From a virus: a stretch of 20,622 nucleotides of DNA. The translations under genes were made by a program, and so were the position numbers. Position 1 is the first letter of the stretch, and every line of letters starts with the position of its first letter. The notes under the pieces were generated by a model. That model did not search any database. It saw nothing but the letters and a program-made list of their open reading frames with translations, and was not told the DNA's origin. Positions 10,116 through 20,573 of the stretch are shown one piece after another. The stretch is taken from positions 1-20,622 of the IMG/VR virus record IMGVR_UViG_3300030102_003882, one strand, 5' to 3'.

Positions 10116-13100
10116 ATGATTAATCAAAGACTATTTGGATCTCCAATTTCTGGAAAAGTAAAAGAAGAATTGGAAAGAAGACAACAAGGAGAAACTTTAA
10201 CAGAGGGAGAATTTGGAGAATCTCTTAATGTAACGGGGAATAATGGATTTAATTTAAATGAAAGAACACCCTTTGCACGAATGTGGACTTCTGTTAAATT
10301 TATTCAACCAGAAAGAGTTGCTGAGGTTTACAAAGAATTTAATGTAAATGATGATGAGGGCTCTCAAATATCTGAAGTAAAAGCTAAGCTTTATAGTAAT
10401 GAGAATCCGGGCACACAAGTTATACCTATCAAAGATAATTCAGAATTAGATGTATTAGGTCGTCCTAAAATAATAAAATACATTGTAAAAACACCAGGTG
10501 ATGATGAAAGGGGTGCGAGAGAAAAAGTCGATTTTGCAAGAAAGATTTATGTAATTGGTGATTATAATTATCAAGAATCAGCTGATAAGGGGACAACAAA
10601 TAGTTTACAAATATTTGATTCCGTTTCACTAAACGGGATGTCAGGCATTGGTGTAGCATCACAAAATGATGTTGACGCATTGTTTCCTAATCAATTAAAA
10701 AATAACGAATTGATAAAACCTCAAACTGGTATCACATCAATTAACACAGAAACCGAAGGTACTTTGGGTGTTATAAAAAGAACAACTGTAAACTTCGTGG
10801 TTCATAACTTTGATGATTTTGATAAAATTTATAATAAATATTTTCTCAAACCAGGTGCTACTGTATTTGTTGATTTTGGATGGAGCTCTGTTGAAAACCT
10901 CTATAATCCATTAGATTTAATCACAAGTGATAATATAAAAGAATATTTATATGGTTCAAAGGATGTTCCTGGTTATGAAGATGATGAAAACCAAGAGTCA
11001 ATTGAAGTAGAGGAAAAAATAGGATTTATTACTGAAAATCAAGGTTATGTGGATGTAATTCAAGGAATCGTTGTAGACTATAATGCAAAAATATTAGAAA
11101 ATGGAAGTGTTGAATGCTCCATTACATTAACCTCATCAAATAATGCCCTACTTGGACAAGAAACCAATGAAATAGTTGTAAGACAAATTCAAAATGTCTT
11201 ATATGAGGGAGCATTGTATCTTGGCATACAAAGTACTTTAAGTGAAATAGAAGAATCAGAGGATGAAATATCTGACACTAGAGAATTTTTTATTACACCT
11301 AATAAGGACGATAGTGCAGAGGATTTAGATACATATAATAAAAAATTACAAAATCTAGCAAAAAAACAATTAGGTAGTACAAATTTTGGATTAACACCAA
11401 GTGGTAATGCTATTAGAACCGGTGTTTTTATTGATAGTTTGAATGTTGATGATGTGTACGTTTGTTGGGGATTCGTTGAAGATATAATAATTAATGAAAA
11501 GTTTGGGTTTGGTAGTGGAACGAAAAATATTAAAGATGGAAATAACTTACAAGTAAGAATGGATTCTTCAAATTCTTTTACAACTTGGAATAAGGTATTT
11601 GAGGAAAGACAAAAAACCTTAGCTAATGTACCTGAATCAACACCTAATTTTTTATATCCGGAATGGTGGGGTAATTCTGATCCGGATGGTGATTCTGTCG
11701 AACTTGATGAAGGTATTCGAGGTACTTCTTATAGTTATTTCAATAATAAATATCCAAAATTATTCTACAATGGTGATAGCCAAACTGATGAGGATATTAA
11801 AAAAAATAGAATACCTATAAGAGAAGTTTTTATAAATGCTGATATGATTTTAGGTGCTTTTAGAAGAAACAATACCATTAGAAAAGTAATAAATGATTTA
11901 TTAGGTGAAATAAATAAAAGTAGTGATGGGGTTTTTGATTGGAAAATGATTTCAGGTGAAACCGATAGTGAGTTAATTATTATTGATAATAATCGTGTTG
12001 ACATACAACAAAGAATAAATGATTCTGGACAATCTAATATTGAAAATCAACAAGACGCTTTTGTAGAAATGTTTCAATTTAACATCATGTCACCAAATTC
12101 TATAGTGAAAGATTATAATTTAGAGTTTTCTTTACCAGAAGGTAATATTGGTAACATGTATGCAGTGCAAGGTATGAGCCATGAAAATAAATTATTCCCA
12201 TTATCAAATCAATTAGATGACGCTTTAGCTATAAATTCATTGGATGTTGATGCACTATCAATAGTTTATGAGCCAGACAACAGTGGATTTAGAGCTAATC
12301 AAATAGATACAAATGAAAATAGAGATGGTGAATTAAATGATGTGTTTGAAAATGCCAAACTATTGATATCTGATGACATTTACAAAACATCAGCTATTCG
12401 TAGTGATGAACAATTAGAAAGCATTTTGACTTCATATACAAGTGAAAACCTTGACGATTCACCTGAGTTAACAGAGGATGAGAAGAAAAAACAACAACAA
12501 AGATTAATTAAAATAAATATAGATAGATTAAATGCACAAGGATTTAGAGTCGTAAGTGATTTTACTAATTATTATAAAGTCAAAGAAATTCAAGAAGTTG
12601 TTTTAAAAACAAGACCTAATTTATTACCATTTACACTTTCATTAACCACATATGGTATTTCATCCATTCAACCGGGCGATACATTTAGAGTAGATTATTT
12701 ACCACAAATGTATTTAGATAATGTTTATTTACAGGTAATGAAAGTATCACATGGAATTAATTCAGACGGTTGGTTTACCACTTTAGATACACAATTTAGA
12801 CCAAGGCCTGAAGTAAAAGAATCACATTATATTGATATTAATACCGACAAAGTAAGGTTATCACCAAAAGTACTACATAATTTAGATTTAAAAGTTTTTT
12901 ACTATGTAGAGGAAAGAAATTATATTGTAACAACGATTAAAACACGAAAAAAACTTAAAATTACAGAACTTACACCCTACATAACTGACTTAAAAATTTA
13001 CACAAAGAACTTTAACAACATAGGTTTAGTTTTATCTTTTAAAACAACTTCATTATCTGATAGTTTAAAAAATAATTTAAGGTTTTACAATTATGCTATT

Positions 13101-13367
13101 TCAAGATTTAATTTGGATGCATATCAAAAACTAAAAGATAAATATGAAATAATTTATATATCAGATGAGAGAGGTGGTGTAGAGGAAGGTAATGACGCAT
13201 CAACAACAACTGGTTTAAGAACCACGCATATAACACCACCAGCGATAACTTTAAATTCTAACACAAATTATTATATTGTAATACAAAACCAAGGTTTTTT
13301 TATTACTGATAGTGAAAGCATGATAACAGATTTTGATTTTCCAACTTCACAATTACGTTTTGGTTAA
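10116..13367 (+). CDS. Very large baseplate hub-like structural protein
   Basis: 1083 residues, the largest gene in the window. The segment at about residues 834-899 contains 'SSIQPGDTFRVDYLPQMY', then DNVYLQVMKVSHGI and SDGWFTTLDTQFRPRPE. This PGD...Y..V..V.H....GW.T.L pattern resembles the C-terminal domain of hub proteins of the gp27/late-control-D type. Around residue 235 the stretch RTTVNFVVHNFDDFDKIYNK precedes 'FLKPGATVFVDFGWSS', reminiscent of hub-ring beta domains. Long acidic, Asn-rich linkers separate these parts, and a C-terminal region after residue ~900 has no recognisable family. The position after gp48-like and LysM genes fits the central baseplate. Alternatives are a wedge protein or a tail fibre anchor; no collagen-like or fibre repeats are seen. 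Confidence 0.6.
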   Translation: MINQRLFGSPISGKVKEELERRQQGETLTEGEFGESLNVTGNNGFNLNERTPFARMWTSVKFIQPERVAEVYKEFNVNDDEGSQISEVKAKLYSNENPGTQVIPIKDNSELDVLGRPKIIKYIVKTPGDDERGAREKVDFARKIYVIGDYNYQESADKGTTNSLQIFDSVSLNGMSGIGVASQNDVDALFPNQLKNNELIKPQTGITSINTETEGTLGVIKRTTVNFVVHNFDDFDKIYNKYFLKPGATVFVDFGWSSVENLYNPLDLITSDNIKEYLYGSKDVPGYEDDENQESIEVEEKIGFITENQGYVDVIQGIVVDYNAKILENGSVECSITLTSSNNALLGQETNEIVVRQIQNVLYEGALYLGIQSTLSEIEESEDEISDTREFFITPNKDDSAEDLDTYNKKLQNLAKKQLGSTNFGLTPSGNAIRTGVFIDSLNVDDVYVCWGFVEDIIINEKFGFGSGTKNIKDGNNLQVRMDSSNSFTTWNKVFEERQKTLANVPESTPNFLYPEWWGNSDPDGDSVELDEGIRGTSYSYFNNKYPKLFYNGDSQTDEDIKKNRIPIREVFINADMILGAFRRNNTIRKVINDLLGEINKSSDGVFDWKMISGETDSELIIIDNNRVDIQQRINDSGQSNIENQQDAFVEMFQFNIMSPNSIVKDYNLEFSLPEGNIGNMYAVQGMSHENKLFPLSNQLDDALAINSLDVDALSIVYEPDNSGFRANQIDTNENRDGELNDVFENAKLLISDDIYKTSAIRSDEQLESILTSYTSENLDDSPELTEDEKKKQQQRLIKINIDRLNAQGFRVVSDFTNYYKVKEIQEVVLKTRPNLLPFTLSLTTYGISSIQPGDTFRVDYLPQMYLDNVYLQVMKVSHGINSDGWFTTLDTQFRPRPEVKESHYIDINTDKVRLSPKVLHNLDLKVFYYVEERNYIVTTIKTRKKLKITELTPYITDLKIYTKNFNNIGLVLSFKTTSLSDSLKNNLRFYNYAISRFNLDAYQKLKDKYEIIYISDERGGVEEGNDASTTTGLRTTHITPPAITLNSNTNYYIVIQNQGFFITDSESMITDFDFPTSQLRFG

Positions 13368-13400
13368 AAAAAAGATTTGGATTTTATAATAAAATAGTTA

Positions 13401-13418
13401 TATATTTAGATATGGATA
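13401..13418 (+). promoter_or_regulatory. Degenerate copy of the candidate late promoter, overlapping a start codon
   Basis: TATATTTAGATATGGATA differs from the consensus at two positions (T to G and A to G). Unlike the other copies, its ATG (13412) is the only sensible start of the downstream gene, and no ribosome-binding site is present. It may be a weak promoter, a relic, or chance in AT-rich DNA. Confidence 0.3.
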
Positions 13419-14719
13419 ATCATTACATTGTAATACCTATATATTCTAACCCATCATTGCATCCTATACACAACGGTAATGATTTATCTTTATTGTATAT
13501 TCAACAATATGATGCAAAAAATAAATCATTAATTGGTGACTCAAAATTCATTACACAATTTCATCCAGATTCTACAAATGTTATGGAAGATTATTCTATA
13601 ATTTCTAAAAATAAAGGTTTAATATTTACACCTGATGGTAAAAACCTACAACCAATATTCTCAAATTATAAACAAGTGTTTTGTGTAAATCAAGCCCATT
13701 GGTGGATTCATGGAAAACCAATGGATTTTGAAGTTCGAAACAATGCGATAGACTTTTTATCAAATAAATTTTATAATGTGAAAAAATTAAATCAAATCAT
13801 TCCATTAATAAAACATAAAGAGTATTGTGATAGCATTAGAGATAAAATGTTTAAGTTTTTAAATAAAGAGTTAATAAATTTAACAAACGATGGTGGTTGG
13901 TTTGATAATAGTAATTTATCTGAACAGGCTTTTTACAATATAGAAAAACATGGTGTAATGGTAAGTGATAATGTGTGTGATGTGTTTGACATTAGAGTAA
14001 AAAAACATATTTCAAATGGGAAATTGTATAGTAACTACAATTTATTCACCACGACAGGTCGTCCAAGTAATTCATTTGGTACAGTAAACTTCGCAGCACT
14101 ACCACCGGATAAACGAAAAGTATTCATAGCTGAAAATGATTATTTGGTTGAATTTGACTTTGATGCATATCATTTGAGGTTAATAGCTGACTTGGTTGAT
14201 TATAATTTTGGTGAGGAATCAGTACATGAACATCTAGCAAAACATTATCAATGTTCCTACGAAGAGTCAAAACAAAAAACTTTTAAACTTTTATATGGTG
14301 GCATTGATAAACAAACAAGAGAGAGTGTTCCTTTCTTTAATAAAGTACATAATTATATAAATAAAAAATGGAATGAAATAAATACACATAATTTAGTATT
14401 TACAGATATTTATAGACGGAAACTATTATTTAAAAATTATGAGGATTTAAACAGAAATAAAGTTTTTAATTATTTGATTCAGGCTTTAGAAACAGAATTA
14501 AATGTTAAAAAGATTTTAAAAATTCAAGACTATTTATTAAATAAAAAAACAAAATTGGTTTTATACAATTATGATAGTTTCTTATTCGACTTTTCAAAAG
14601 AAGATGGAGTGGAAACTTTGAAAGACATAAAATCAATTTTAGAAGAAGGAAAACATTTTACCAAATCCAAAATGGGATTGAATTATGGTGAAATGCAAGA
14701 TATTACAAAGAGGTTATAA
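13412..14719 (+). CDS. Divergent family A DNA polymerase-like protein lacking an exonuclease domain
   Basis: 435 residues. The second half has the family A polymerase motifs in order: TTTGRPSNSFGTVNF (Arg217) leading to VFIAEN; motif A 'LVEFDFDAYHLRLIADL' with metal-binding Asp249; motif B 'SKQKTFKLLYGG' with Lys287, Phe291 and Tyr295 spaced like Lys758, Phe762 and Tyr766 of E. coli Pol I; and motif C 'LYNYDSFLFDF' with Asp388. It should bind template, primer and dNTPs. Odd points: the steric-gate Glu of motif A is His254, the motif C HDE is YDS, and the motif B Arg754 equivalent is Tyr. The first ~200 residues show no 3'-5' exonuclease motifs and are unrecognised. T4-like phages normally use a family B polymerase (gp43), so this may be an accessory enzyme or a replacement. 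There is no ribosome-binding site, and the start overlaps a promoter-like motif. Confidence 0.8.
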   Translation: MDNHYIVIPIYSNPSLHPIHNGNDLSLLYIQQYDAKNKSLIGDSKFITQFHPDSTNVMEDYSIISKNKGLIFTPDGKNLQPIFSNYKQVFCVNQAHWWIHGKPMDFEVRNNAIDFLSNKFYNVKKLNQIIPLIKHKEYCDSIRDKMFKFLNKELINLTNDGGWFDNSNLSEQAFYNIEKHGVMVSDNVCDVFDIRVKKHISNGKLYSNYNLFTTTGRPSNSFGTVNFAALPPDKRKVFIAENDYLVEFDFDAYHLRLIADLVDYNFGEESVHEHLAKHYQCSYEESKQKTFKLLYGGIDKQTRESVPFFNKVHNYINKKWNEINTHNLVFTDIYRRKLLFKNYEDLNRNKVFNYLIQALETELNVKKILKIQDYLLNKKTKLVLYNYDSFLFDFSKEDGVETLKDIKSILEEGKHFTKSKMGLNYGEMQDITKRL

Positions 14720-16885
14720 ATGAATCATATTTCAAAAATTATAGAAGATATATTAGTAGAATGGGCATATCGTGTTCACGATGGAATGCCTAATCCAAAA
14801 AACGCACAACATATCCAAGAACTTCGTGAATCAATGGAAGAATTGAATTTACCAAATAAAGTTATTTATGAGGTTATTCAAAATTTAATCAATGAACAAG
14901 ATGATGAGAAGGTAACATTTAAAGACCCACGAACAGGTGATATGAGAACCATCACGATGAAAACTGCTAGACAATATGCTTCAGATATCAAACAAGGAAA
15001 AGGAAATGATGAAAAAGAAGCAGCTGTAAAAGCAGCTAACCTTGATAGTAAGGATACCAAACAAGATAAAGAAGATGATAGCGGAAAATTAAGTGCTGAT
15101 GATTTCGATACAGAAAAGAGTGGTTATTTAAGGAAAAAAAGTAGTGGGGAATCTAACCGTACACAAAATCTAAGTGATGAAAATAAAAAAATAGTTAATG
15201 ATTTTGAAAAAAGGGTACAAGATAGAGTTGAAAATTTAAGTGATGATAAAAAAACTTTAGTCAAAGATTCGTTGGATAAAATCGCAATTATTTATGATGA
15301 CAACTCCTCACTTGAACAGAAAAAAGAAGCAGCTCAATGGTTAGTCAATAATGCTGGATTTTCTACAAATGATAGTCGTAAAAAAGCCTACTTAAACAAA
15401 TTAGGTGGGGATAGAAAAATCATATCAGGTGATGCTGGAACTAAAAAATCAGCTGATTTAGTTAATAAGGTTTCTGATTTAGTTGAATTAAAAACTTTTG
15501 ATGCTAAAAGTGTTAAACAAGGATTTACAACGGCAGCTAAACCTGATTTAGGTAATGACAATATAGTAAAACCAAAAGATGATAGTCGTGTTGCTGAGTA
15601 TTTTTCTAATCACCCTATCTTACAGAAAATAAGAGGTGGTTTACATGGTATATATGGTGTAATCGGTGAAGATGGTAAAATTAAAATGCCAAGTAGTGAA
15701 CATTCAAAAGATTATTTAACTCAAAGTTTTAATAATCCAGCGTTACAAAATACAATAGATTTTGCTAGGAAACAAGTTGAATCTGGTAATGTTGATGGTG
15801 GAGTTGTTACAACTTTAGAAACTCACCAAAGTAATTTAAAAAATATTTTAGAAAATTATGAAATACCAAGTGAAGAAGCACAACAAGCAATTGCAGATAG
15901 TTATAATGATTTAATGGTTGGTTTACATAAATCTGATTCTGACATAGCTAATTCAATTATGAAACAAATTGCTGAAAATAATTTATATGAACAAGAACTT
16001 GCTAATGGTGAAGAGGTTTATTTACCATCTGCTGGTAACTTCCCTGCTGGTGATAAAATAAAAGGTGGGACTACAGAAAGAGTTGCATTAGTTAGTTGTA
16101 AGTTTGGTAAGTCAGGTAGAATTTATGGTTGTCCTGCTAATTCAAAAACCATTTGTGAACTACATCAAAATGAATCTAAAAGAAATAATCAAGGACAATA
16201 TCTTGGTGAGGACGGACATACATTACTTATAAATGATAATTTAATAAAAGGTGAAAATAAAGAGGAAACAAAAGAAAAAACAAAAGGATTTATTAAAAAA
16301 ACATTAACTGAAGTTGGATTGGGTAATGTATTTTCAGATGATGAAATAGACGAAATATCCAACATATCATCTGATTATATGGAAGAGATTGACAACATTA
16401 AAAAAGAATTAGATGATATGAATTTACCTGATGCTTCCTCTTATTGGAAAGAATTTGGTAAAAGAATTGGTAATATAGAGGATAAATATAAACAAAGAAT
16501 GGGTAAAGTTGTTACTAAAGAGAAGGCAAAAGATTTAATTGGTGAAAATAACGTTCCAAACTTAGTACAAACAGGCGGTGTCAAAGTGGAAAGTATCATG
16601 TCAGCTATAGAAATAGCTAATAATATTAGAACAAATGAATCTCTATTGGAATTAGAACATAATAAACAATACTATGATGAAAATAATGAACCTAAATTCG
16701 TTACAGATAAAGGAACACAAAATCCAAATGATTACTCAATAACATTTAGAACCAAAAGAACTGCTGGTAGGACTGGTGGTGGTTGTCAATTATCATTTAC
16801 AGGTGATGGAACACCTCCAAAAAATAATTTACAAGATGATGGTAGTTTGACAAGTGGTGAAACTGGTAAGGAAATAGAAGCATAA
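14720..16885 (+). CDS. Large charged protein of unknown function with conserved N-terminal module
   Basis: 721 residues, ATG directly after the polymerase stop, with AGAGG just upstream. Residues 8-57 contain EWAYRVHDGMPNPKN (from Glu14), then HIQELRESMEELNLP and a helix ending IQNLI; from memory, similar N-termini head several otherwise unrelated proteins of marine T4-like phages. Residues ~60-200 are very rich in Lys, Asp, Glu and Ser and look unstructured. A folded stretch at about 430-505 has Asp445 followed by VALVSCKFGKSGRIYG (Ser459-x-Lys461) and PANSKTICELH, loosely like a D...(E/S)xK nuclease core, but this is weak. The C-terminus is Gly-rich (GRTGGGCQLSFTGDGTPP). No membrane segment. 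It could be an injected virion protein or a replication-associated factor; function is unknown. Confidence 0.7.
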   Translation: MNHISKIIEDILVEWAYRVHDGMPNPKNAQHIQELRESMEELNLPNKVIYEVIQNLINEQDDEKVTFKDPRTGDMRTITMKTARQYASDIKQGKGNDEKEAAVKAANLDSKDTKQDKEDDSGKLSADDFDTEKSGYLRKKSSGESNRTQNLSDENKKIVNDFEKRVQDRVENLSDDKKTLVKDSLDKIAIIYDDNSSLEQKKEAAQWLVNNAGFSTNDSRKKAYLNKLGGDRKIISGDAGTKKSADLVNKVSDLVELKTFDAKSVKQGFTTAAKPDLGNDNIVKPKDDSRVAEYFSNHPILQKIRGGLHGIYGVIGEDGKIKMPSSEHSKDYLTQSFNNPALQNTIDFARKQVESGNVDGGVVTTLETHQSNLKNILENYEIPSEEAQQAIADSYNDLMVGLHKSDSDIANSIMKQIAENNLYEQELANGEEVYLPSAGNFPAGDKIKGGTTERVALVSCKFGKSGRIYGCPANSKTICELHQNESKRNNQGQYLGEDGHTLLINDNLIKGENKEETKEKTKGFIKKTLTEVGLGNVFSDDEIDEISNISSDYMEEIDNIKKELDDMNLPDASSYWKEFGKRIGNIEDKYKQRMGKVVTKEKAKDLIGENNVPNLVQTGGVKVESIMSAIEIANNIRTNESLLELEHNKQYYDENNEPKFVTDKGTQNPNDYSITFRTKRTAGRTGGGCQLSFTGDGTPPKNNLQDDGSLTSGETGKEIEA

Positions 16886-17283
16886 TGAAATCACAATTAC
16901 TAGCAACGTTTACAACTAAAAGTAATCTTGATGAAACAATTGAGAAAATCACAGACGCATATATAATTACATTCAATAAAGTATATGTATTACAAAATGA
17001 AAACAATGTGAATGAATTAATTTGCACTTATAATGTAGATACACAAAATGGAGTTGATTACAATAAAGTGGAGGGAACGATTTCCCTACATAGAAAAAAA
17101 CATTCCAATACATTGTACACCATTAATGCATTGAATGAATGTATTAAAAATTTAAACAATGGTGTTTTAGATAATAAATTCATGATACCGTGGGAAAATT
17201 TTAAAAATATGTTAATGGTAACAAACGCAGATGGGTTGAACAAAATAAATACTAGAATTTATAAAATTGAAAAAATAAATTAA
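16885..17283 (+). CDS. Conserved-looking small protein of unknown function
   Basis: 132 residues, ATG overlapping the upstream TAA by one base (TAATG). It is soluble, with an alternating beta/alpha look: MKSQLLATFTTKSNLDETIE, 'VYVLQNENNVNELICTYNV', a central ISLHRKKHSNTLYTINALNE and an Asn/Leu helix, ending INTRIYKIEKIN. From memory, proteins with this 'LHRKK..NTLYTINALNE' block occur as hypothetical proteins in marine T4-like phages. No enzyme motif is seen. The tight coupling to the preceding large protein suggests they are made together. Confidence 0.8.
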   Translation: MKSQLLATFTTKSNLDETIEKITDAYIITFNKVYVLQNENNVNELICTYNVDTQNGVDYNKVEGTISLHRKKHSNTLYTINALNECIKNLNNGVLDNKFMIPWENFKNMLMVTNADGLNKINTRIYKIEKIN

Positions 17284-17300
17284 TTTATAAAAAAAATATA

Positions 17301-17314
17301 TATATTTATATACA
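17301..17314 (+). promoter_or_regulatory. Candidate late promoter element (copy 6)
   Basis: TATATTTATATACA, the same variant ending (TATACA) as the copy at 1422. It ends 18 bases before the ATG at 17333, with AGGAG (17319-17323) in between. Confidence 0.55.
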
Positions 17315-17332
17315 CATTAGGAGAAATAGGTT

Positions 17333-18064
17333 ATGTCAAAAGTAAAAGAAAAAAACACTCAGGTTATAGAGGAAGAACAATCATCCCCATTATATTATTT
17401 TTATTCAGTAGGTTGTGGTTTTTGTAAAAAAGCAGACCCAATTGTTGATGAATTAATTAATGAAGGACATGATATTCTAAAACTTGATACAGCGGAACCA
17501 GAAAATAGACAAATTGTAGAAGAACTTAAAAAAGAATATAAAGTTCAATGTGGCACACCTTGGTTTATAAATGCAGAAACAGGTAAAGGTGTGTGTGGAT
17601 ATCGAGAAAAAGATATTATTGAAAAATGGTTAAATGGTGAGGATATTCCCGCACCACCAAGACCAACGGCACCAATGCCTAAACCACCATTAATGGGTGC
17701 AAGTGGAAAAGAAGAGACAAAATGGAAAAAGGAATATAAAAAGTGGTCTGAGGAAAATTCACATCTACCAAACATACAATCAGCAAACCAAATTTTATCT
17801 CGACCAAGACCAAAAACTGAGCCACCTAAACCTCCAAATCCACAAGGTACTGATGAGGAATTAACTTTATGGGGTAAAGAATATGATAAATGGAAAGATG
17901 AAAATTCACATCTTCCAAACTTACAACCATCGTCTGTGATACTACAGAGATTTAAACAACAGACACAACAACCGCCTGTCCAAAACACACAAGGTTTAGA
18001 GCAAAGAATAACAATAATGGAACAAAAACTCGATAAATTAATGAGTCATTTGGGAGTGAAGTGA
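17333..18064 (+). CDS. Glutaredoxin/thioredoxin-like protein with two proline-rich 42-residue repeats
   Basis: 243 residues. Residues ~18-100 form a thioredoxin-fold domain: active-site Cys28-Gly-Phe-Cys31 after the strand LYYFYSVG, and a cis-proline motif GTPWF (Pro76). This should reduce or form disulphides. The rest is unlike ordinary glutaredoxins: a Pro-rich linker and two tandem repeats (residues 116-157 and 165-206) of the form PKPP...EY.KW..ENSHLPN..., ending IL.R, then a C-terminal coiled coil (LEQRITIMEQKLDKLMSHLG) that could oligomerise the protein. The start has AGGAG and a candidate late promoter. The next gene overlaps its stop (GTGA). Late expression hints at a virion or assembly-related redox job instead of the nucleotide-reductase role of T4 NrdC, but that is inference. 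Confidence 0.85.
   Translation: MSKVKEKNTQVIEEEQSSPLYYFYSVGCGFCKKADPIVDELINEGHDILKLDTAEPENRQIVEELKKEYKVQCGTPWFINAETGKGVCGYREKDIIEKWLNGEDIPAPPRPTAPMPKPPLMGASGKEETKWKKEYKKWSEENSHLPNIQSANQILSRPRPKTEPPKPPNPQGTDEELTLWGKEYDKWKDENSHLPNLQPSSVILQRFKQQTQQPPVQNTQGLEQRITIMEQKLDKLMSHLGVK
17678..17950 (+). repeat. Two tandem 126-base coding repeats in the redoxin gene
   Basis: Copies at 17678-17803 and 17825-17950, each exactly 42 codons, separated by 21 bases. The encoded repeats share PKPP at the start, Glu-Tyr-x-Lys-Trp-x-x-Glu-Asn-Ser-His-Leu-Pro-Asn in the middle and Ile-Leu-x-Arg at the end. The DNA of the copies has drifted, so the duplication is not recent. Confidence 0.85.
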
Positions 18065-18465
18065 AATTTAACTTTAAACCAAAAGTAACAAAAGATAGAG
18101 AAGCTACCGAAGAAGAATTACAATGTATTGAAAAAACTGAAAGAATGTTGGAGAATGAAAAAAAATTGCCACCAACATCTCAAATGGTTAGAGATTTAGC
18201 TGTAACTCATTGGAAATCTTTAAAGTCTTGGGTTAAAGGTTCTCAAGTCATAACCACACAAAAAGAAGCCGAACGTAGATGGAATATTTGTAAAGCATGT
18301 CCGGAACTTTTATATGATGAAACTAATCCAGATACAGGTAAAAAAGATGGTAGATGTCCTCATTGTGGATGTTTCATGAATGTTAAAGTACACTATGCGA
18401 TCGCAGAGTGTCCAATAGGAAAATGGGATAAAAAATGTGGGTGTGATGAAACTAAAGAGTGTTAA
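18061..18465 (+). CDS. Small cysteine-rich, probable zinc-binding protein (GTG start)
   Basis: 134 residues, starting at GTG 18061, which overlaps the upstream TGA (GTGA); GGGAG at 18052-18056 supports it. The C-terminal half has a zinc-ribbon-like cysteine pattern: Cys77-x2-Cys80 (RRWNICKACPE), Cys99-x2-Cys102-x-Cys104 (GRCPHCGCFM) and Cys117 in ECPIGKW. Further Cys residues lie at the extreme C-terminus. This 'C..CP...GRCP.CGC.M..K...A...CP.GKW' pattern is a recurrent small phage domain of unknown function. The N-terminal half is helical and charged. It is co-transcribed with the redoxin gene, so thiol chemistry or metal loading linking the two is a tempting idea without direct support. Confidence 0.85.
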   Translation: MKFNFKPKVTKDREATEEELQCIEKTERMLENEKKLPPTSQMVRDLAVTHWKSLKSWVKGSQVITTQKEAERRWNICKACPELLYDETNPDTGKKDGRCPHCGCFMNVKVHYAIAECPIGKWDKKCGCDETKEC

Positions 18466-18484
18466 AAAAAAATAAAAAAATAGC

Positions 18485-18514
18485 TTGTTTTATATATTAA
18501 AAAAGATATATATT
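18485..18514 (+). promoter_or_regulatory. Possible sigma70-like promoter for gp32
   Basis: TTGTTT (18485-18490) and TATATT (18509-18514) are separated by 18 bases, upstream of gp32. The late element seen elsewhere is absent here, consistent with an earlier expression class. In such AT-rich DNA a match of this quality can be chance. Confidence 0.3.
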
Positions 18515-18529
18515 ATAGTTAATAGGTTA

Positions 18530-18551
18530 TATGGTTATAAGATTAACCATA
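18530..18551 (+). promoter_or_regulatory. Hairpin in the gp32 leader (possible translational operator)
   Basis: TATGGTTA (18530-18537) and TAACCATA (18544-18551) form a perfect 8-bp stem with a 6-base loop, ending 38 bases before the gp32 ATG. A second GGTTA (18525-18529) could compete for the same TAACC arm. T4 gp32 represses its own translation through a structured leader followed by an A/T-rich unpaired stretch; here the stretch after the hairpin is also A-rich. No T-run follows, so it is not a terminator. Confidence 0.4.
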
Positions 18552-18589
18552 AATAATAAACGATAAAAGATAAAACATAGGAGAAAATA

Positions 18590-19360
18590 ATGGATATAAA
18601 TGCAATAAAATCCAAACTCAATCAACTACAATCAACAACATCAACAAAAGAAAACTTTTGGAAACCTGAACCAGGTACACAAGTTGTTCGTATTGTTCCT
18701 TACAAACACAATAAAGACAATCCATTCATTGAATTGTTTTTTCACTATAATTTAGGTAATAACAAAACTTACCTTTCACCAATGTCGTTTGGTCGCCCCG
18801 ACCCAGTCGCTGAATTTGCTGACAAACTAAAATCAACAGGTAATAAAGACGAGTGGATTCAAGGTAAAAGACTTGAACCTAAAATGAGAACTTTTGCACC
18901 TGTGATAGTTAGAGGTAAAGAATCTGAAGGTGTTAAGTTTTGGGGTTTTGGTAAGACTGTTTATCAAGAACTACTTGGTGTAATCGCAGATCCTGATTAT
19001 GGTGATATTACAGACGCTACTAATGGTAGAGACATTGGTATTGAAAGACAGACACCTGCAGAAGCTGGTAACCAATATGGTAAAACCACTGTACGAGTAA
19101 AACCAAATCAAACAACTATTACCGATGACGCAAATCTATTGAGTAATTTATTAGAAAATCAATCTGAATTGACAGAACTTTATACTGAACCATCTTATGA
19201 TGATTTAAAAGAAGTTTTACAAAACTATTTGAACCCATCTGATGATACTCAAACTGTAGAAACAAGTAATACAAATACAACCGAAACAGTTGCAACACAA
19301 ACCTCTACAACAACAACAGGTGAAGTATCGGATGCGTTTGATAAATTATTCAACGATTAA
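18590..19360 (+). CDS. gp32: Single-stranded DNA-binding protein (gp32-like)
   Basis: 256 residues; T4 gp32 has 301. It coats ssDNA in replication and recombination. Visible features: an N-terminal helix with a Lys/Asn region (MDINAIKSKLNQLQS), an OB-fold core with 'KENFWKPEPGTQVVRIVPYK', RTFAPVIVRGKESEGVKFWG and 'FGKTVYQELLGVIADPDYGD', and a Thr-rich linker ending in an acidic tip (SDAFDKLFND) like the T4 protein-interaction tail. The protein contains no cysteine at all, so the zinc-binding site of T4 gp32 is absent. AGGAG precedes the ATG. It sits immediately upstream of uvsX, its functional partner. Expression may be controlled through the leader hairpin. Confidence 0.92.
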   Translation: MDINAIKSKLNQLQSTTSTKENFWKPEPGTQVVRIVPYKHNKDNPFIELFFHYNLGNNKTYLSPMSFGRPDPVAEFADKLKSTGNKDEWIQGKRLEPKMRTFAPVIVRGKESEGVKFWGFGKTVYQELLGVIADPDYGDITDATNGRDIGIERQTPAEAGNQYGKTTVRVKPNQTTITDDANLLSNLLENQSELTELYTEPSYDDLKEVLQNYLNPSDDTQTVETSNTNTTETVATQTSTTTTGEVSDAFDKLFND

Positions 19361-19375
19361 TCAATAAAAATCCAT

Positions 19376-19437
19376 TGTGTGGTTGTTGAAGACTTGGATA
19401 AAACCGCTAAGTATTTGTTACCGGATACAACCACATA
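19376..19437 (+). promoter_or_regulatory. Structured RNA element in the gp32-uvsX intergenic region
   Basis: TGTGGTTGT (19378-19386) pairs perfectly with ACAACCACA (19427-19435); adding a G-T and a T-A pair gives 11 bp closing a ~40-base interior. Inside, ACTTGG (19392-19397) pairs with CTAAGT (19407-19412) around a 9-base loop. No T-run follows, and the uvsX AGGAG lies just downstream, so a leader or processing element is likelier than a terminator. It matches no riboswitch class I recognise. Confidence 0.5.
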
Positions 19438-19454
19438 TTAATTAGGAGAACAAT

Positions 19455-20573
19455 ATGTCAGAAAAAGACGAATTGGCTGGTGTTATAGCCAATGAATTAA
19501 ATAAACAATTCAAACATCAACAAGTCGCTTACTTTTTAGAAGAAGGCTCTAACCCAACTGATGTTACGGATTTCATTTCGACTGGTTCGACAATGTTGGA
19601 TTTAGCGATATCAAACAGACCAAATGGTGGGATTGCTGTAGGTAAAATTACTGAATTAAATGGTTTAGAAGGTAGTGGTAAGTCTTTAATAGGTTCTCAT
19701 TTGTTAGCTTCGACACAGAAGAAAGATGGTATAGCAGTTTACATTGACACAGAATCAGCAGTATCTCAAGAGTTCTTGAGAGCTATTGGTGTGGATACTA
19801 AAAATATGTTATATGTGCACTTGGAAACTGTCGAAGAAATATTTGATACTATTGAAACAATTGTTACCAAAATCAGAGAATCAAATAAAGATAAGTTAGT
19901 TACAATTTTGGTTGACTCATTAGCAGCTGCATCCACCAAACAAGAAATGGATACAGATTTTGATAAAGATGGTTGGGCTACAGCCAAGGCGATTATAATA
20001 TCAAAAGCGATGAGAAAAATTACACAAATGATAGCTAGACAAAAAGTTGCTCTTGTTTTTACAAATCAACTTCGTCAAAAGTTAGGTGTAATGTTTGGAG
20101 ACCCTTGGACTACAAGTGGTGGTAAAGCTTTACCATTTCACTCATCAACTCGTGTTCGATTCAAAAATGCCGGACAAATCAAAGACAAATCAAACAATAC
20201 TATTGGTATTAAAATAAAAGGACAGGTGATTAAAAATCGTCTCGGCCCTCCAATGAGAACGGCTGATTTTCCTTTGTATTTTGATACAGGTATTGCTGAC
20301 TTTGATAGTTGGTTAACAGTAATGAAAGAGCACAAGATATGTAAAGTAGGTGGTGCTTGGTATACATTACAACACTGTGATACTGAAACTGGTGAATTAA
20401 TTAAGGAATACAAATTTCAATCTAAAGATTTTGAAGAGTTAATGTTAACAAATTCAGAACTAAAAGATTATTGTTATGAACAAATCTGTGAAGCTTGTAT
20501 TTTAAAATATGATTCTAAAGAGTTAGGTATCGATGATGTTAACGAAACAGATGAGGTAGTGGATGAACTCTAA
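19455..20573 (+). CDS. uvsX: UvsX, RecA-like recombinase
   Basis: 372 residues; T4 UvsX has 391. An ATP-dependent strand-exchange protein for recombination-dependent replication and repair, loaded on gp32-coated DNA. Walker A is GLEGSGKS (residues 70-77), followed by 'AVYIDTESAVSQEFLRAIGV'; Walker B is LVTILVDSLAA. The segment 'KAMRKITQMIARQKVALVFT' followed by NQLRQKLGVMFGDPWTTSGG covers the L1/L2 DNA-binding loop region of RecA/UvsX. The C-terminus is acidic. The start is supported by AGGAG at about 19443. A further gene starts inside its last codons. Assignment is secure. Confidence 0.96.
   Translation: MSEKDELAGVIANELNKQFKHQQVAYFLEEGSNPTDVTDFISTGSTMLDLAISNRPNGGIAVGKITELNGLEGSGKSLIGSHLLASTQKKDGIAVYIDTESAVSQEFLRAIGVDTKNMLYVHLETVEEIFDTIETIVTKIRESNKDKLVTILVDSLAAASTKQEMDTDFDKDGWATAKAIIISKAMRKITQMIARQKVALVFTNQLRQKLGVMFGDPWTTSGGKALPFHSSTRVRFKNAGQIKDKSNNTIGIKIKGQVIKNRLGPPMRTADFPLYFDTGIADFDSWLTVMKEHKICKVGGAWYTLQHCDTETGELIKEYKFQSKDFEELMLTNSELKDYCYEQICEACILKYDSKELGIDDVNETDEVVDEL

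Follow-up and report, generated by a model that had tools for sequence, protein, structure and literature searches.

The phage polymerase family divPolA1 was named in 2024 (Yutin et al. 2024, Virol J 21:200, PMC11348598). The passages of that paper on which we draw describe family A DNA polymerases with a truncated thumb, an inactivated 3'-5' exonuclease and preserved catalytic palm residues, encoded with replication genes downstream by 14 phages that also have a regular DNA polymerase of family A, B or C. In the same passages a role of divPolA1 in replication is suggested, and that of the 'regular' enzymes is considered less obvious. The divPolA2 proteins are likewise extra PolAs found beside a PolB, but they have another N-terminal domain and a variable neighbourhood, and the published description sets them apart from divPolA1 (PMC11348598). 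A third described system is CCPol-MP of SCCmec (Bebel et al. 2020, PMC7581432), in which, according to the sections cited here, a PolA-family polymerase without exonuclease domains acquires priming activity from a small neighbour, MP. T4 gp43, a family B enzyme, is also found in T4-like phages and belongs to an unrelated family; many of the divPolA1 records analysed below carry a separate gp43-like PolB.

The locus studied here lies in a 20,622-base virus fragment (hereafter the window). Matches to UvsX-like, SSB and baseplate-wedge proteins inside it support a T4-like setting, as a preliminary description of this DNA had proposed. The gene of interest is a single open frame in the ORF check of the window (ATG at 13412, stop at 14719), and the opposite strand of 13412-14719 has no comparable frame.

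13412..14719, + strand: divPolA1-type accessory family A DNA polymerase, 435 aa (frame, Pfam, homologues, model, published family)

Pfam DNA_pol_A matches the window protein with an E-value of 2.4e-6, which is under the curated cut-off, and 25 of 56 divPolA1 family members (best E 5.7e-12). With the threshold relaxed to E 10, the Pfam matches of this protein include DNA_pol_A and FAST_1 but not DNA_pol_B (PF00136). A profile of the family reached the Klenow/KlenTaq sequences at E about 1e-3, and a single-sequence search of the PDB with the window protein gave a best E of 1.8. At E 0.01, relatives were found in 6 of 50,697 phage records, namely four records of Flavobacterium phage immuto, the uncultured phage LR756508 (484 kb) and Microcystis phage Mel-JY01. 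The immuto protein is the closest annotated homologue (33% identity, 83% of the window protein covered, tblastn E 2e-48), and since the cited part of PMC11348598 names the immuto records among the divPolA1 genomes, we count the window protein as a divPolA1.

Scans of IMG/VR with representatives of three clades yielded 414, 312 and 109 tblastn-confirmed stretches, sets that may overlap, and 80 relatives were kept per scan. Among bacterial genomes, 88 pattern matches included a single relative, on a Flavobacteriales MAG contig; the LR756508 protein used as a query found no relatives by pattern. The 241 loci scanned gave 230 polymerase frames, 207 of which were closed and 201 of which were 395-475 aa long. 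These 201 full-length members, from IMG/VR plus the one MAG contig, compare with 14 phages in the published set (PMC11348598, as cited above). Keeping 55 members at 85% identity and adding the window gave a non-redundant alignment of 56 rows (A3), with a mean column identity of 45%. We conclude that 13412-14719 encodes a real, conserved protein belonging to the phage family divPolA1.

An AlphaFold2 model was computed from the 56 aligned members (mean pLDDT 92.6, pTM 0.90). Foldseek searches of the PDB with this model rank Pol I enzymes first (6vdc, E 3.4e-16), and VIA-align 2 superposes it on KlenTaq 4n56 (Z 26.8, rmsd 3.2, 355 residues aligned) and on Bst 4f3o (Z 26.4, rmsd 3.8, 394 residues aligned). 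The predicted Pol I fold, including the superposition on the PolA palm and fingers, thus agrees with Pfam and the family profile on the family A assignment made earlier from the PolA motifs. The aligned model ranges extend from residue 1-2 to residue 428-430, residues 1-430 pairing with Taq 302-832 and Bst 312-876. Therefore, the N-terminal 200 residues, which had been called unfamiliar, correspond to the exonuclease-like region and the thumb of a shortened Pol I, the protein having 435 residues versus about 540-580 for the solved Pol I chains.

13412..13741, + strand: predicted shrunken 3'-5' exonuclease-like domain without DxE acidic residues, residues 1-110 (boundary approximate; model superposition)
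13799..14011, + strand: predicted thumb-like helices, residues 130-200 (boundary approximate; model secondary structure, thumb truncation published)

In the thumb-like region, the model predicts two long helices, 132-159 and 163-180. In the first 110 residues, H17 and K77 are the sole invariant positions of the 56-member alignment, and when intact phage PolAs are aligned beside divPolA1 proteins, nothing in the latter matches their catalytic DxE. The preliminary description had stated that no exonuclease domain is present; this holds for the catalytic DxE but not for the domain itself, as an exonuclease-like domain superposes on Taq and Bst Pol I. CCPol, in the published account, has no exonuclease domain altogether, whereas divPolA1 appears to retain a shrunken one (PMC7581432, sections cited). 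Searches of 13 records with PF01612 (3'-5' exonuclease) matched only the full PolA of immuto (1/13). A profile-profile comparison of divPolA1 with the full PolAs that coexist with it, in which the full-PolA side consisted of three near-identical rows, gave no match. On the basis of the model, we are confident that divPolA1 has a Pol I fold with an inactivated exonuclease-like domain.

The polymerase motifs are found in the second half of the protein.

14048..14071, + strand: TTTGRPSN motif, residues 213-220 (T215, R217, P218 and N220 in 56/56)
14150..14179, + strand: motif A EFDFDAYHLR, residues 247-256, with catalytic D249 and with H254 at the steric-gate position (D249 and H254 in 56/56 and 205/205)
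14258..14299, + strand: motif B / O-helix, residues 283-296, with Y283 (Klenow R754 position), K287, F291 and Y295 (all 56/56)
14468..14503, + strand: NYLIQALETELN, residues 353-364 (N353, Q357, E360, T361 and N364 in 56/56)
14564..14578, + strand: motif C YNYDS, residues 385-389, with catalytic D388 (Y385, Y387 and D388 in 56/56)

The residues D249, H254, K287, F291, Y295 and Y387-D388-S389 are where the preliminary description had placed them, and the Asp pair whose conservation it had singled out, D249 and D388, is invariant in both the non-redundant and the unfiltered alignments. In the latter, D249, H254, Y283, K287, F291, Y295 and D388 are present in 205 of 205 rows (201 members, the window, immuto, Mel-JY01 and LR756508), many of them near-identical; D251 is present in 55 of the 56 non-redundant members. 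HMMER pairs DFDAYHLR of motif A with DYSQIELR of Taq/Klenow, and aligns the Tyr that precedes the O-helix Lys with an Arg. His254 is at the position of Klenow Glu710 and Tyr283 at that of Klenow Arg754 (Klenow numbers), and K287, F291 and Y295 correspond to positions 758, 762 and 766 of the Klenow O-helix (Lys, Phe/Tyr/Leu and Tyr). In Pol I, Arg754 faces the incoming triphosphate; the O-helix Arg and the steric-gate Glu are common in family A without strictly defining it. Thus, divPolA1 shares with Klenow, KlenTaq and Bst Pol I the whole fold, motifs A, B and C and the catalytic Asp pair, but it differs from them by His in place of Glu710, Tyr in place of Arg754 and YD(S/A) in place of HD(E) in motif C. 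The second of these replacements had been absent from the earlier list.

We compared the nucleotide pockets by aligning five canonical phage PolAs beside three divPolA1 proteins. The position of Klenow Arg754 is occupied by Arg in all five canonical enzymes and by Tyr in the 56 divPolA1 members, and the steric-gate position by Glu in four of the five, by Gln in that of CRP-7 and by His in all 56 members. Because the 778-aa PolA of immuto is one of the five, the genome of that phage carries both pocket types. As His254 and Tyr283 are invariant in the 56 non-redundant members, the altered gate is no quirk of one sequence, and with an invariant His254 divPolA1 may tolerate ribonucleotides. With the Arg754 equivalent lost in all members, divPolA1 could use nucleotides weakly or in an unusual way, which counts to some extent against the reading favoured below. 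The word 'steric' is absent from the text of Yutin et al. 2024 (PMC11348598), the part of the paper covered by our literature search, and that search found no description of a histidine gate in family A. The invariant His/Tyr signature and the constant ~130-aa neighbour presented below are added here to the description of divPolA1, without a claim to priority.

Downstream of divPolA1, the window encodes the following proteins.

14720..16885, + strand: modular protein directly downstream, 721 aa, with a conserved ~60-aa N-terminal segment and a variable remainder
16885..17283, + strand: proposed divPolA1 partner, ~130-aa conserved protein of unknown function (126/126 loci; same 6 phage records; model pLDDT 93.9)
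17333..18064, + strand: thioredoxin-domain protein, window clade only
18061..18465, + strand: Cys-rich protein (DUF6171-like), window clade only
18590..19360, + strand: single-strand DNA binding protein (phrog_1192, E 2.4e-24)
19455..20573, + strand: UvsX-like recombinase (phrog_97, E 3.7e-68)

In all three clades, a protein of ~130-150 aa, an SSB, a UvsX/RecA, a 5'-3' exonuclease and a DnaB-like helicase are encoded downstream of divPolA1. SSB genes were found near divPolA1 in 13/15, 30/30 and 37/37 loci of the three clades. For two clades, UvsX was found in 26/26 and 34/34 loci and the exonuclease in 23/23 and 29/31; the stored loci of the window clade end too early for these two counts, and in that clade UvsX is present in the window, and the exonuclease and the helicase were seen in two genomes (G002 and G008). 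The identity of the 5'-3' exonuclease was confirmed with PF02739 in one member per clade. Scans of positions 13000-19500 detected no promoter above shuffles, and terminator-like hairpins on the minus strand only.

Some genes of these clusters are peculiar to one clade or phage. The modular protein is of a type found in the window clade (L004-L073). Its ~60-aa N-terminal segment harbours a EWAYRVHDGMPNPKN-type motif in 57 of 58 cases, and beyond this segment 56 proteins form 8 mutually dissimilar groups. Ten members had no Pfam match over the cut-off, and that of the window had no match in the 50,697 phage records. From its sequences, the modular protein looks like a tag carrying exchangeable payloads. 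The thioredoxin-domain protein (17333-18064 in the window, 9239-10042 in L036) contains repeated Pro-rich segments. A thioredoxin gene is present near divPolA1 in 17/21 loci of the window clade and in 0/31 and 0/46 loci of the others, and on these counts a T7-like thioredoxin processivity factor for divPolA1 was set aside. The Mel-JY01 cluster includes an S-adenosylmethionine lyase-like protein (L002 11712-12998, Pfam E 4.4e-10). RM378 was rejected as a precedent for a split PolA: its record encodes a PolB of 532 aa but lacks a short PolA.

The small protein was detected downstream of divPolA1 in each of the 126 loci with 3.5 kb or more of downstream sequence (36/36, 33/33 and 57/57 across the three clades), a count that falls to 4/57 in the Mel clade if an ATG start is required. 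Conversely, when loci were fetched via the small protein, divPolA1 was found in 164 of the 170 with testable upstream DNA. Of the six others, three have divPolA1 elsewhere in the contig and three are contigs of 4.9-8.3 kb without it; 46 of the 216 small-protein loci, which lack a divPolA1 match and have less than 2,500 nt of upstream sequence, were left uncounted. In the collection of 50,697 phage records, the 6 that match one of the two proteins are also the 6 that match the other, as compared with 162 records matched by the neighbouring SSB and 2,091 by the exonuclease. With immuto queries, the small protein matched 6 records and the polymerase 8, the two extra ones being short faecal fragments (E 4e-6 and 2e-4). 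As the 6 phage records represent three lineages only, this strict co-occurrence may partly reflect shared descent. In one locus (L370, genome G037), extra genes that by eye are HNH-like and radical-SAM-like separate divPolA1 from the small protein, and both are kept. The predicted model of the small protein is an alpha+beta fold (pLDDT 93.9) for which Foldseek proposed no convincing known family (best E 0.14) and VIA-align gave a best Z of 6.9 over 65 residues, with ACT-like domains, which is within the range of unrelated models. We infer that the small protein binds divPolA1 as a dedicated partner.

CCPol-MP is similar to this system in that a polymerase-only PolA, an adjoining small partner gene and a helicase gene form a cluster (PMC7581432, sections cited). 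As divPolA1 has an equally constant small neighbour and a changed gate, it might also be a two-subunit primase-polymerase that initiates synthesis de novo on single strands, with ribonucleotides as possible substrates given the gate His, but we consider this unlikely. CCPol is reported in those sections to keep the equivalents of E710 (E174 in CCPol) and F762, where divPolA1 has His254 at the gate, and to prime with dNTPs only; a gate His is thus unnecessary for priming. The two systems also differ by host element, helicase type and partner, and the small protein of divPolA1 has no convincing structural match. Moreover, DnaG-like primase genes were found in every divPolA1 record of at least 137 kb (11/11), eight of these records being identified by a match to our DnaG-like profile (A7) and three contributing the sequences that form it. 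This profile detects T4 and RM378 weakly and had no DnaG-like match in five smaller divPolA1 records; PF01807 alone is a poor primase test, as T4 itself is negative. The phages therefore do not need divPolA1 as their only primase, and such a function is unlikely. The primer-making activity evoked in the preliminary description is thereby disfavoured in that form, and divPolA1 may still have a special primer-making role.

The dead exonuclease and shortened thumb, the altered O-helix and gate, and the adjacent UvsX and SSB genes would also be in line with a mutasome-like polymerase for damage bypass that UvsX and the small partner activate, with low processivity, no proofreading and a rebuilt pocket. 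This hypothesis appears improbable to us, because no lesion-related gene was found with divPolA1 and no lesion-bypass feature specific to the family was identified.

A second full-size polymerase is encoded in 16 of the 20 divPolA1 records of 100 kb or more. It is a PolB in nine (G002, G017, G018, G019, G020, G036, G037, Mel-JY01 and LR756508) and a full PolA of 778-796 aa in seven (immuto, G010, G011, G012, G013, G014 and G016). No second polymerase was found in G001, G003, G015 and G042, the last of which was searched for PolB only, and in these four divPolA1 or its partner is within about 1-17 kb of a contig end; in the complete cases, about 15-45 kb separate divPolA1 from the other polymerase. 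These data, which come from relatives of the 20.6-kb window fragment, support the earlier proposal of an accessory enzyme, in this case accessory to a separate full-size PolB or PolA. That divPolA1 is instead the main replicase, the other polymerase being specialised, is very improbable: the replication cluster does surround divPolA1 rather than the regular polymerase, a point made in the cited passages of PMC11348598, but divPolA1 is short and without proofreading, the coexisting full PolAs keep their exonuclease acidic motifs (consensus), and in G002 an AAA ATPase gene that looks like one for a clamp loader lies two genes after that of the PolB.

Two further observations concern the coexisting polymerases. 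The family B polymerase of G019 is divided between two frames (C1:53555-55532, 610 + 306 aa), as is that of LR756508 (260623-266900, 1022 + 625 aa). In immuto, a deazaguanine DNA-modification set (annotated QueC, QueD, QueE, FolE and DpdA) is found near the full-size PolA (L514, NC_055915 13279-63000), and modified DNA could relate to the presence of a second polymerase.

The reading that we favour, at somewhat better than even confidence, is that divPolA1 is a catalytically competent, proofreading-less accessory polymerase involved in gap filling and recombination. Polymerisation by divPolA1 is likely, and the gene neighbourhood, namely the adjacent flap exonuclease, SSB and UvsX, is what suggests gap filling. 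The T4-like phage would thus carry divPolA1 in addition to its main replicative polymerase, and divPolA1 would perform short synthesis at gaps, at Okazaki junctions and at recombination intermediates made by UvsX. Its co-workers would be the dedicated ~130-aa partner, SSB, UvsX, the separate 5'-3' exonuclease and a DnaB-type helicase. In effect, such a system would be a split Pol I, with the polymerase and the flap exonuclease on separate genes of one cluster.

The divPolA1 family is abundant in IMG/VR and heads a recombination-replication cluster. With its odd but invariant pocket and its constant partner, the 'divergent PolA' becomes a two-protein system amenable to expression and assays, and Flavobacterium phage immuto offers a cultured host-phage pair for genetics. 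More speculatively, divPolA1 and its ~130-aa neighbour might be a two-subunit enzyme representing a second, independent invention of the CCPol-MP type, with a His254/Tyr283 pocket that takes ribonucleotides or the modified nucleotides of the phage and that starts or patches DNA on strands covered by SSB and UvsX. We regard this as doubtful; if true, such a two-subunit enzyme would be carried by aquatic T4-like phages that form a very common group.
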